A program made the position numbers and the translations under genes. Positions 28,430 through 32,874 of a stretch of DNA of 42,876 nucleotides are shown piece by piece. The notes under the pieces are model-generated. The model did no database searches and had not been told where the DNA came from. It saw only the letters and a list, made by a program, of their open reading frames with translations. The DNA lies in assembly GCA_012838275.1 (NCBI GenBank), contig DUPO01000003.1:1-42876 (forward strand), written 5' to 3'. How positions within the stretch are numbered: position 1 is the first letter of the stretch; every line of letters starts with the position of its first letter. The DNA is from Spirochaetales bacterium. Lineage in GTDB: Bacteria > Spirochaetota > Spirochaetia > Sphaerochaetales > Sphaerochaetaceae.

Positions 28430-29209
28430 TCAGTTCACCTGTTCTGAAAGCAGTACGGCAAGGGCTATCAAGGGGAGATCGATCCTCTGTTGCATGCTGA
28501 GATGGAACAGGCGCTGGGAAAGTCTCAAGTTCGGCTTCCGGGACTCCCTGACAGCGCGTACCCTACGCACCATACGCCAGAGGTTCTTCTGTCTCACCTT
28601 CAAGTGCAGAAGCAACAGTTCGAGGAACTCCTCAGCCCAAGGCCCCCTCTGTCCTTCAGGTAGCAATGTAAACTCTTTCTTCTCAACCAGGCAGATAGCG
28701 TCACTGAGATCCTGCATGTCCAGATTCGAAACATCCTGAAGGAATGACTCCAAGGCAAAGATGCCCTCCTGTTCCTGATAGTCCGGACTTCCCGCCTTCC
28801 CCTTGAGTTCGTACCTTCTCTGCAGGGCGAGAGAGGAACGGGTATCACGTCTGGCCAAGGCTACCCAGCAAAATATGCTCAGCCCTGAAGAGACGAGTAT
28901 CTCGTCGATCATCGGCAGCGGATCGCGAATAGCGAGCGACATGAAAAAATACGTGACTAAAAAGACTACTGCGCATATAAGGAGCCTCGGGACATACTGT
29001 TTGTCCTGGATCCATCGATCGACAGAAAAATCTATTGCCCGATAGAGTGCAAAGGAAGCTTCATCCTTCTGATTCTTTGTCAGCATACCGCTACTCTTGA
29101 GCACCACCGGGGTGTCAGCGTCCAGCAGGGTTACCTTATCCGTCTTCAGATAAGGGCTGAGATAGAGGTTCGCTCCGACTTTCCTGAGCAGTGCATAGCA
29201 AGTTATCAT
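28430..29209 (-). CDS. Conserved-looking membrane protein of unknown function
   Basis: A 259-residue protein with a soluble N-terminal part (about 70 residues), a membrane hairpin (LLICAVVFLVTYFFMSLAI and ILVSSGLSIFCWVALA) and a mainly helical cytoplasmic C-terminal region rich in Leu, Arg and Glu (EEFLELLLLHLKVRQKNLWRMVRRVRAVRE). I do not recognise the family. ATG at 29209 directly abuts the TAG of the phosphohexomutase gene, so it is almost certainly translated from the same mRNA. The ComEC hairpin follows its stop. Confidence 0.75.
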   Translation of the reverse strand: MITCYALLRKVGANLYLSPYLKTDKVTLLDADTPVVLKSSGMLTKNQKDEASFALYRAIDFSVDRWIQDKQYVPRLLICAVVFLVTYFFMSLAIRDPLPMIDEILVSSGLSIFCWVALARRDTRSSLALQRRYELKGKAGSPDYQEQEGIFALESFLQDVSNLDMQDLSDAICLVEKKEFTLLPEGQRGPWAEEFLELLLLHLKVRQKNLWRMVRRVRAVRESRKPNLRLSQRLFHLSMQQRIDLPLIALAVLLSEQVN

Positions 29210-30904
29210 CTATAGGGCCGCCTTAAACATTTCTACAAGGTCCGGAAGGGATTCTTCCAGTTCCTGCCTACCCCCTTTTTCCGCTTTGACAAAGAGGTAG
29301 TATTTGATTTTTGGTTCTGTCCCGCTGGGACGAACCACCAGTTTCTCTCCAGAGGTGAAATGCATGATCAGGACATCTGAAGGAGGAAAACCTGTATCCT
29401 TGCCAGCAAGCAAGTCCTTGGTGGAAAGAAGCGTCTTGCTTCCCAGAACATCTTCAGCCTTGAGATCTCTCAAAGAGGCCATGATCTGTTCCATCTTCCG
29501 CTTACCAGCAGAACCTTCATAGTCACGGGCAAAGACCACCTCAGTGCTATACCCATATTCATCATAGATGGCATCGAGGCGCTGTTGCAAGGTCAGCCCG
29601 CGCGTAGCATAGTAGCTCATCATCTCTACAGCTACCAGGGCTGAACTTACAGCGTCCTTATCCCTGACTGAGGGGACGGTAAGATAGCCATAGCTCTCTT
29701 CACATCCAAAGAGGAAATACTCCTCCTCACTCTTCTCCAGAGCTGCAATCTCCTCTGCTATGTATTTGAAACCGGTCAGGACATCCTTACATCTGCCTCC
29801 ATGGTCCTCCACAATCTGTCTGACAAGGTCGGTCGTGACCAGGCTTTTCACACATACAGGCCTCTTCTCACCCTCAGATGCGTTGACCAGGTAGTCACAC
29901 AGCAACACAGCTATCTGATTACCACTCAAAAGCTGGTATGCATCCTTCTGAGGGGTCACCGGTATCGCTATGCCCAGACGATCGGCATCGGGATCAGTAC
30001 CCAATACAATGTCGGCTTTGCTCTTCTTTGCCAGATCGAGCACCATTTTCATTGCATCAGCACTCTCAGGATTGGGAAGGCTCACTGTGGGAAAGGAGCC
30101 ATCGGGCTGTTCCTGCTCCGGTACGACCACACACTTGATGCCCACCTCTTTCAGAAGATGCCGGATGGGGACATTCCCTGTCCCGTGCAAAGGAGTATAG
30201 GCTACTGTTATGGGGCTTCCATAGACGAGGGATGGCCTCTTCAGGGATGCGAGCACCATTGCATAGTAGGCCTGGTCCACCTTATCGGGAACCGGGACCA
30301 ACAACCCTTTGGAGCGGGCACTCTGTTCGCTGATGCTCTGGATATCCTCGACCCTAACCGAATTCGCGCGTTCTGCGATGCTGAAATCATGAGGAGGGGT
30401 TACCTGCCCCCCTGAACGCCAATAGACCTTATACCCATTGTATTGGGAAGGGTTATGGCTTGCGGTAATGACGATTCCTGCGGTGGTATTGAGATAGCGA
30501 ACAGCAAAGCTCAGCATCGGGACCGGATGCAGCGTATTGTACAGGAATACGGAAATACCATTGGCAGCAAGTACCAGCGAGGCTTCCATGGCGAATTGCT
30601 CGCTGTAGTGACGACTATCGTAGGCTATGGCCACAGAGGGATTGCTGGACTCCTCGTTGAGGTAGTCGCTCAAGCCTTGGGTGACCTTGCGTATGATGAA
30701 GGTATTCATCCTGTTGGTTCCCCCGCCAAGAATCCCCCTGAGCCCTGCAGTCCCAAAGGAGAGGCTGGTATAGAACCTGTCGTACAGGCCCTCCCAGTTC
30801 TCATTTGCAAGTTCCAACTCCACTTCCTGGCGAAAAGCACTCTCCTGTTCGCTTCGGATGTAAGCTTCAGCTTTAATTCTCAGGTCTTTTTCATTGTAGG
30901 TCAT
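29210..30904 (-). CDS. Phosphoglucomutase/phosphomannomutase family protein
   Basis: A 564-residue alpha-D-phosphohexomutase that shifts phosphate between C1 and C6 of a hexose. Family motifs: SFGTAGLRGILGGGTNRMN at the N-terminus, the phosphoserine loop ITASHNPSQYNGYKVY, the metal loop GTDPDADRLG, the sugar-binding GCEESYGYL and the phosphate-binding VVRPSGTEPKIKYY. The long form with FGTAGLRG and TASHNPSQYNGYK is the PgcA/PGM2 type. The start overlaps the end of the HAD phosphatase by 14 bases. Glucose 1-phosphate is the likely substrate; a pentose role is possible in this subgroup. Confidence 0.93.
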   Translation of the reverse strand: MTYNEKDLRIKAEAYIRSEQESAFRQEVELELANENWEGLYDRFYTSLSFGTAGLRGILGGGTNRMNTFIIRKVTQGLSDYLNEESSNPSVAIAYDSRHYSEQFAMEASLVLAANGISVFLYNTLHPVPMLSFAVRYLNTTAGIVITASHNPSQYNGYKVYWRSGGQVTPPHDFSIAERANSVRVEDIQSISEQSARSKGLLVPVPDKVDQAYYAMVLASLKRPSLVYGSPITVAYTPLHGTGNVPIRHLLKEVGIKCVVVPEQEQPDGSFPTVSLPNPESADAMKMVLDLAKKSKADIVLGTDPDADRLGIAIPVTPQKDAYQLLSGNQIAVLLCDYLVNASEGEKRPVCVKSLVTTDLVRQIVEDHGGRCKDVLTGFKYIAEEIAALEKSEEEYFLFGCEESYGYLTVPSVRDKDAVSSALVAVEMMSYYATRGLTLQQRLDAIYDEYGYSTEVVFARDYEGSAGKRKMEQIMASLRDLKAEDVLGSKTLLSTKDLLAGKDTGFPPSDVLIMHFTSGEKLVVRPSGTEPKIKYYLFVKAEKGGRQELEESLPDLVEMFKAAL

Positions 30905-31568
30905 TGATAGCCTCCTGTAGCTCCTCTACTGAATCCACCAGGTTGGATGCACTCAGCATGGCTAGGTCCTCTCTTGGTCTGAATCCCCACGATACCAGAA
31001 TATGTTGGCAACCAGCATTCACTGCTGTCTGATAGTCAACTTCAGAATCACCTACATAGAGCAAATTTTCAACAGGAAGTTGCTCTTTATTTGCAAAATA
31101 CAGAATACCTGCCCTATCCGGCTTCCTTGGGAAGTCATTTCGCATCCCCCTCACCCAGGCAAACCGGATATGGGGAAACAGGGTGCGGACAACCTTTCCT
31201 GTCAGCCCGTCCTCCTTATTGGAAAACACTGCGATAGGAATCTCTTGACGATCCAGGCCTTCCAACAGGGGAAGAATCCCTTCATACGGCTTGCTTTTGA
31301 CACAAGGGTTCTCGCGATAATACTCCATCATCGCAGCATACATCCGGTCGATCTGATCGGAGGGAAGGTTTTTTCCCTTGAGTTCTACAGCTCCCATCAA
31401 AGCATTTCTCAAGCCCCTGCCTACAACCTTTTGTGTCATCTGAGCATCCAAAGGAGATAAACCTTCAAGTTCAAGGGCCCTGTTCAGGGCATTTTGTATG
31501 TCTTCTATCGTATCGACAAGCGTTCCATCTAGATCAAACAGGATAGCCTGCACTGTTTTTTTCTGCAT
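30891..31568 (-). CDS. HAD family hydrolase, phosphoglycolate phosphatase-like
   Basis: A 225-residue haloacid dehalogenase-type phosphatase with motif I LFDLDGTLVDT, motif II VFSNKE, the motif III Lys in RKPDRAG and motif IV VGDSEVDYQTAVNAG. A helical cap (NALNRALELEGLSPLD) follows motif I, as in Gph and PpaX. The exact substrate is unknown. I take ATG at 31568, six bases after a GATAAT -10, over an in-frame ATG at 31586 that lies within the promoter spacer and would not be transcribed. It heads the operon of phosphohexomutase and the membrane protein. Confidence 0.88.
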   Translation of the reverse strand: MQKKTVQAILFDLDGTLVDTIEDIQNALNRALELEGLSPLDAQMTQKVVGRGLRNALMGAVELKGKNLPSDQIDRMYAAMMEYYRENPCVKSKPYEGILPLLEGLDRQEIPIAVFSNKEDGLTGKVVRTLFPHIRFAWVRGMRNDFPRKPDRAGILYFANKEQLPVENLLYVGDSEVDYQTAVNAGCQHILVSWGFRPREDLAMLSASNLVDSVEELQEAINDLQ

Positions 31569-31574
31569 AATGCC

Positions 31575-31604
31575 ATTATCGGACATCGAAGAGGTACAAG
31601 TCAA
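31575..31604 (-). promoter_or_regulatory. Promoter of the HAD phosphatase operon
   Basis: On the minus strand TTGACT (31604-31599), 18-bp spacer, GATAAT (31580-31575). Expected start falls on the A of the ATG at 31568. Confidence 0.65.
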
Positions 31605-31612
31605 TAAACGTT

Positions 31613-31641
31613 TTGACAAAACTCCGGCGTTCCGCTACTGT
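31613..31641 (+). promoter_or_regulatory. Promoter of the RlmI-like gene
   Basis: TTGACA (31613-31618), exact 17-bp spacer, TACTGT (31636-31641). Expected start is the A of ATG at 31648. Its -35 is 8 bp from that of the divergent promoter. Confidence 0.7.
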
Positions 31642-31647
31642 TAAACC

Positions 31648-32874
31648 ATGCAAACAATTACAATTAAAGATGGAAAGGAAAAACAACTCTTACGTCACCA
31701 CCCATGGGTTTTCTCCGGTGCGATAGACTCGATTGCCAATAAGGATGAAGTGGGGATTGCAAAGAGTGTAACACATGATGGCTCCTTCATTGCCTGGGGC
31801 TGGTACGATCCCAAAAGTCATATTCCCCTCAGGCTTCTCAGCTGGAAGGAAGATGAAGAGGTCAATGACAAGTGGTGGGCAAGGACCATCACAGCAAGCG
31901 TGCTCAGGCGAAGCTTTTTTTTCAGGGACAAAAGCACCCCAACAACCGCCTTCCGCATAATTTTCGGTGAGGCGGACATGCTTCCCGGTCTTGTAGCTGA
32001 TGTGTATGGAACGCTTATCCGCATCGATATCAGTGCAAGGGTAGCTTGGGACCATAAGGACCTTATCGTCTCCACGCTTGAGAGACTTTTACAACCTGCA
32101 ATGATCATCGTCAACACAGACCCGGCCTTTTGTGCGGTCGAAGGACTCAGCGAAACAGTGCTTTTCTATCAGAATGGCGGATATTTCACCCCGAGCAAGC
32201 GACTGCCGCCCATTAGATTCCGTGAAGACGGCCTCTTGTATGAGGTAGTCCCGGGCAAAGGGAAAACGGGTAAGTTCTACTGTGGGCAAAGGGATAACCG
32301 TACGGCCATCGAGCCCTACTGCAAGGATGCCGTCGTCCTGGACGGATGCTCCCATACCGGAGCCTTTACCCTGCATGCCCTGCGTAGCGGTGCAGCATGG
32401 GTAGACCTCATCGACAGCAGTTCCACCTCCCTTAAGCAGAGTCTGGCCCATGTCCACATCAACCAGGATGCAGACATCATCCCCAAGGGGAGCAGAGAGA
32501 GGGTAAACATCATCAAGGCGGATATTTTCAGGCAGATGAGGATCATTGAGAAGAACAAGTATGATGTCATCATTCTCGACCCCCCTAAACTTGCCCAGAA
32601 AAAATCCCAGGCAGACAAGGCGGCCCAGGATTGCAAGGACTTGAACAGACTCGCCATGGAGAAGATAAAGAATGAAGGCATCATTGCCACATTCTCCAAT
32701 TCAGAGGCGATATCCAGTGAGATGCTACGGACAATCCTAGCTTGGAGCGCCGAGGATGCAGGGGTAGAGATCCAGATACTTAAAACCTTGCTGCAGGCAG
32801 AGGACCACCCTATTCGCTTGTCTTTCCCCGAATCGGAATACCTCAACGGCTACCTCATCAGGGTGATACGCTAG
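31648..32874 (+). CDS. RlmI-like class I SAM-dependent RNA methyltransferase
   Basis: A 408-residue protein of the RlmI/YccW family, whose studied member makes m5C1962 in 23S rRNA. It has an N-terminal PUA domain (HPWVFSGAIDSI), a central domain with GKTGKFYCGQRDNR, the SAM site VLDGCSHTGAFTLHAL and motif IV ILDPPKLAQKK. Where the family has Cys in the FSCS motif near the C-terminus, this protein has TFSNSEAIS, so Asn replaces Cys; the same region is otherwise well conserved (AEDHPIRLSFPESEYL). It may therefore have lost or changed its activity. No Shine-Dalgarno is present and the start codon is at the expected transcription start. Confidence 0.88.
   Translation: MQTITIKDGKEKQLLRHHPWVFSGAIDSIANKDEVGIAKSVTHDGSFIAWGWYDPKSHIPLRLLSWKEDEEVNDKWWARTITASVLRRSFFFRDKSTPTTAFRIIFGEADMLPGLVADVYGTLIRIDISARVAWDHKDLIVSTLERLLQPAMIIVNTDPAFCAVEGLSETVLFYQNGGYFTPSKRLPPIRFREDGLLYEVVPGKGKTGKFYCGQRDNRTAIEPYCKDAVVLDGCSHTGAFTLHALRSGAAWVDLIDSSSTSLKQSLAHVHINQDADIIPKGSRERVNIIKADIFRQMRIIEKNKYDVIILDPPKLAQKKSQADKAAQDCKDLNRLAMEKIKNEGIIATFSNSEAISSEMLRTILAWSAEDAGVEIQILKTLLQAEDHPIRLSFPESEYLNGYLIRVIR

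Follow-up and report, generated by a model that had tools for sequence, protein, structure and literature searches.

A divergent HAD phosphatase and RlmI-like gene pair in a Sphaerochaeta bacterium carries two conserved, probably leaderless promoters of the sigma-70 type

The window, meaning the whole 42,876-nucleotide stretch of DNA analysed here, belongs to a 2.36-Mb assembly; among named genomes, Sphaerochaeta MAGs and isolates are the closest to this assembly. Genes for a HAD-superfamily phosphatase and an RlmI-like methyltransferase are arranged divergently in it, with an ATG-to-ATG interval of 79 bp (Table 1). The HAD protein matches the NCBIfam phosphoglycolate phosphatase models and the RlmI-like protein the NCBIfam RlmI model (1e-62), in each case below the cut-offs of those models. 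At positions 28430-31568 the HAD gene comes first in an apparent operon that also contains genes for a phosphohexomutase and an unassigned 259-aa protein, with overlapping or adjacent gene ends; Shine-Dalgarno (SD)-like motifs are present at the later genes of this apparent operon and none at its first gene.

Table 1. Genes, start codons and predicted promoter elements at the HAD/RlmI locus, in window coordinates
Feature	Position	Strand	Basis and remarks
HAD-superfamily phosphatase gene, phosphoglycolate-phosphatase-like, 225 aa	30891-31568	-	ORF; Pfam HAD_2 2.7e-28
HAD ATG	31568-31566	-	Predicted mRNA +1 at 31568; sole start codon before FDxDGT common to congeners having the gene
HAD -10, GATAAT	31580-31575	-	6 nt (GGCATT) before ATG; promoter scan; GATACT in 1/20 genus sequences
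HAD -35, TTGACT	31604-31599	-	18-nt spacer; promoter scan; unchanged in 20/20 distinct genus sequences
Inter--35 segment, TAAACGTT	31605-31612		8 bp; longer in one subgroup through a 24-bp tandem duplication
RlmI -35, TTGACA	31613-31618	+	17-nt spacer; unchanged in 20/20 distinct genus sequences
RlmI -10, TACTGT	31636-31641	+	6 nt (TAAACC) before ATG
In-frame TAA	31642-31644	+	Two codons 5' of the RlmI-like ATG
RlmI-like ATG	31648-31650	+	mRNA predicted to begin at 31648, the A of this codon
RlmI-like class I rRNA methyltransferase gene, 408 aa, PUA-like N-terminus	31648-32874	+	ORF; Pfam PUA_3 and Methyltrans_SAM

Direct reading of the sequence gave TTGACT-18 nt-GATAAT-GGCATT-ATG on the minus strand for the HAD side and TTGACA-17 nt-TACTGT-TAAACC-ATG on the plus strand for the RlmI side, with a -10 to ATG distance of exactly 6 nt at both genes. 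No SD was found at either gene when GGAG, GAGG, AGGA, AGGG and AAGG were searched 5-18 nt 5' of each ATG. This reading confirmed the layout and coordinates of the original prediction, along with its -10 elements exactly six bases from both ATGs and the missing SD sequences. The prediction had also called each promoter a good one, which is fitting for the HAD promoter, at 10/12 in a generic promoter scan, and overstates the RlmI -10, since TACTGT matches TATAAT at only 3/6 positions; the whole plus-strand promoter reaches 9/12 and is absent from the matches listed by the generic scan. On the RlmI side, the in-frame TAA excludes a longer N-terminus, and between this stop and the conserved HHPWVFS motif there is no start codon other than this ATG at 31648.

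Orthologous intergenic regions were compared within the genus, represented by 20 distinct sequences and 40 starts, and beyond it. The -10 to ATG gap is 6 at RlmI in 20/20 of the distinct genus sequences and at HAD in 19/20 (5 in G097), these being related species whose conserved gaps do not represent independent events; the comparison across orthologous loci that had been proposed as a check came out in favour of a held distance. Both -35 hexamers are invariant throughout, the base before the ATG is C or T at 40/40 starts, and an SD is absent at 40/40. The RlmI -10 occurs as TACTGT, TACTCT, TATTGT, TACCGT or TAGAGT with a gap of 6 in every case. The hexanucleotide between the -10 and the ATG varies in sequence (GGCATT, GGCACT, ATCCCT, GACCCT, GGCGAT; TAAACC, TAACCC, GTAGCC, GTACCC, TTACCT), indicating that its length is what is held.

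In one subgroup (G093, G107-G110 and G113-G115), the intergenic region measures 103 bp rather than 79 bp through a 24-bp tandem duplication around ACGTTTTGACAAAA, and both gaps nevertheless stay at 6. This result indicates that the distance between the promoters is free to change while each -10 to ATG distance is not. In most members of the subgroup, decay has affected the copy that no -10 faces any longer, and both copies are intact in G093. Loci L009-L014, L016 and L019 are those with the 103-bp intergenic region, where the duplication lies between the divergent -35s. Further out, both starts of the related genomes G078, G079 and G081 have a gap of 6 or 7 with recognisable -35s, and in G116 and G077 the HAD gap is still 6, with the RlmI gene having its own long, SD-bearing leader. 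As judged from these comparisons, the layout of the locus is real and conserved in the genus, and not a chance match.

The same spacing was examined genome-wide in G101, a closed Sphaerochaeta genome of which 2.0 Mb was analysed, using 1679 genes from a purpose-written simple coding-potential caller. Starts were retained if their intergenic space was 40 nt or more, and duplicate upstream regions were removed, leaving 395 starts without and 516 with an SD. TANNNT is found at gap 6 in 64 of the 395 SD-less starts, against a background at gaps 12-40 that averages 5.6 and never exceeds 11 per gap, an excess of ~11-fold (Poisson P about 2e-44), while the SD-bearing starts have 9/516 at that gap and no peak. 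A pyrimidine stands at -1 in 59/64 gap-6 starts as compared to 367/516 SD genes (Fisher P 1.3e-4), and starts at gaps 6-7 are enriched in -35-like hexamers. The excess over gaps 5-9 comes to ~107 genes, or ~6% of called genes, and a small sample from the window's own genome points the same way (gap 6 in 6/52). Predicted leaderless starts are, by these counts, an ordinary class in Sphaerochaeta, making up ~6% of genes in G101. Four 552-aa genes of G101 (L091:16688-18343, L061:14212-15867, L061:10692-12347 and L053:6041-7696) share TATAAT/GTGACA hexamers with a gap of 7 to the ATG, and resemble copies of a single mobile-element gene whose start is leaderless.

A different pattern was seen at rsgA, for which the upstream regions L166-L189 were compared, together with that of the window's own genome (G000:C49 near 35203). 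The rsgA promoter (TACAGT) is retained throughout the genus. In eight genomes, the window's own included, it lies at gap 6 without an SD, whereas in the remaining genomes the gap is about 15-23 nt and a purine-rich, GGGAG-like SD motif is present. This contrast supports reading a gap of 6 as leaderless, and rsgA would appear to have switched between leaderless and leadered states within the genus. We think it fairly probable that Sphaerochaeta has a sizeable class of leaderless genes constrained by promoter spacing, in which loci such as rsgA switch states and rlmI/HAD stays leaderless on both sides. If so, rsgA-type switching and the stable rlmI/HAD locus would form a natural set of cases in which to test why a gene remains leaderless.

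From the sequence, we infer where transcription starts, that translation is leaderless and that the main sigma factor is used at this locus, which probably consists of two sigma-70-type, leaderless promoters. Very likely, the two promoters are separate, both mRNAs are leaderless, and the locus is one instance of the ordinary Sphaerochaeta class with spacing selected for each gene. Two housekeeping-sigma promoters would stand back to back with their -35s 8 bp apart. Because each -10 ends 6 nt before the ATG and transcription usually starts 7 nt after the -10, +1 is expected on the A, preceded by a pyrimidine, with a start 1-2 nt off this A also possible. The HAD and RlmI mRNAs would then be translated through direct recognition of the 5'-terminal AUG, not through an SD, and selection on the -10 to ATG distance, acting on each gene separately, would maintain the leaderless starts. 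The original prediction that both mRNAs start at AUG is supported, at the sequence level, by the conserved 6-nt gap, the pyrimidine at -1 with A at +1, the missing SD, the in-frame TAA of RlmI and the genome-wide peak.

Other promoters, lying further upstream, might instead give rise to both mRNAs, which would be leadered but translated independently of an SD, with the nearby -10 matches incidental, given that AT-rich DNA upstream of starts yields chance -10 matches and that leaders exist on other spirochaete mRNAs (PMC5243855). We regard this as very unlikely in view of the gap-6 peak in G101 with its -1 pyrimidine and -35 enrichment, the orthologues in which the gap is fixed while the sequence varies, and the 79 bp common to HAD and RlmI, which the two predicted promoters largely fill. 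Less probable still, to the point that we give it hardly any weight, is that HAD translation begins upstream, at ATG 31586 or TTG 31619, which would make the HAD promoter not leaderless. The HAD frame is indeed open upstream to the TTG at 31619 in the window, and ATG 31586 is the start picked by a simple coding-potential caller, but neither codon has an SD and both are missing in many congeners; the upstream frame meets an in-frame stop 2-10 codons away in G097, G098, G106 and G111, and the HAD ATG ~10 codons before FDxDGT is the start common to congeners. A conserved longer N-terminus with its own ribosome binding site, named beforehand as a finding that would count against leaderless starts, was looked for on both sides, being blocked by the TAA in RlmI and meeting stops or lacking shared starts upstream of HAD in congeners.

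The divergent pairing could also be one functional device, with the overlapping -35 region acting as a shared regulatory site or a point of polymerase competition, so that expression of both genes is coupled, in a stress-selective or a coordinated manner. The strong conservation in the genus of AGTCAACAAACGTTTTGACA, the block containing both -35s, speaks for this reading. We consider it unlikely, since both promoters persist though the duplication separates them in one subgroup, with one copy decayed in most members, since the HAD gap-6 layout is kept in G116 and G077 where RlmI has a long SD leader, and since pairs of this kind are as frequent as independence would predict. With gap 6 or 7, a -35 of at least 4/6 and no SD as the leaderless criteria, and alternative ATG starts taken in, 26 left and 33 right genes at the 218 divergent junctions of G101 qualify, and 4 junctions qualify on both sides against 3.9 expected under independence. 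These four include rlmI/HAD; rsgA opposite a pentapeptide-repeat-like gene, the two promoters overlapping within 62 bp; and a peptidase gene opposite one for an aldo-keto reductase. The last pair (G101:C1:83785-83850) has a 64-bp intergenic region with both -10s 6-7 nt from the ATG. The view that a paired, symmetric case is unusual was therefore given up and the pairing rejected as a special arrangement: it is the outcome expected when two leaderless genes, each independent of the other, lie head to head, and no special mechanism is needed.

The suggestion that the arrangement could mean stress-selective translation found nothing in its support and was likewise rejected. Twenty other predicted leaderless genes sampled from G101 are of mixed function (PdxA, an AraC-type regulator, a Zip transporter, UbiA, a U32 peptidase, an RsmB/F methyltransferase, a glycosyltransferase, a histidine kinase and others), and no stress theme was found among these 20, which also argues against a coupled device.

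The preferred reading, two separate leaderless promoters, points to leaderless starts as a routine feature of gene expression in Sphaerochaeta, a spirochaete genus with cultured members, so an SD should not be the only guide when start codons are annotated there. Both conserved (rlmI/HAD) and switching loci also become available as test cases for leaderless initiation. A literature search returned nothing relevant on Sphaerochaeta start mapping, on RlmI and leaderless mRNA, or on paired leaderless divergent promoters.

The original prediction noted that leaderless starts are known in other phyla; its view that the present case is unusual for a spirochaete is not supported by published work. 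In Leptospira interrogans, dRNA-seq detected about 440 mRNAs with leaders of <10 nt, about half of these <2 nt (PMC5243855). That organism is likewise a spirochaete with leaderless mRNAs, although it belongs to another order and its starts were measured, while those of HAD and RlmI are predicted from promoter spacing. The available part of Zheng et al. 2011 (PMC3160421), which makes no mention of the HAD/RlmI locus or of Sphaerochaeta, reports TANNNT-led leaderless signals in 6/18 spirochaete genomes, at an average of 3.9% of genes as compared to about 6% of called genes in G101. The signal described there, a -10-like TANNNT about 12 bp 5' of the start codon with no SD, resembles the present one, and both genes show the -10 placement, the absence of an SD and a correct start codon, with a genome-wide TANNNT peak in the congener G101. 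In Deinococcus-Thermus, leaderless expression is driven by a -10 motif that lies only a few bp from the ORF, and it becomes stronger when a -35 is added (PMC12340547); ~30% of ORFs are of this kind there, in contrast to a minority class in Sphaerochaeta, and the HAD and RlmI promoters both have clear -35s. Set against these systems, the HAD/RlmI locus is a well-conserved further case of an already known leaderless promoter type.
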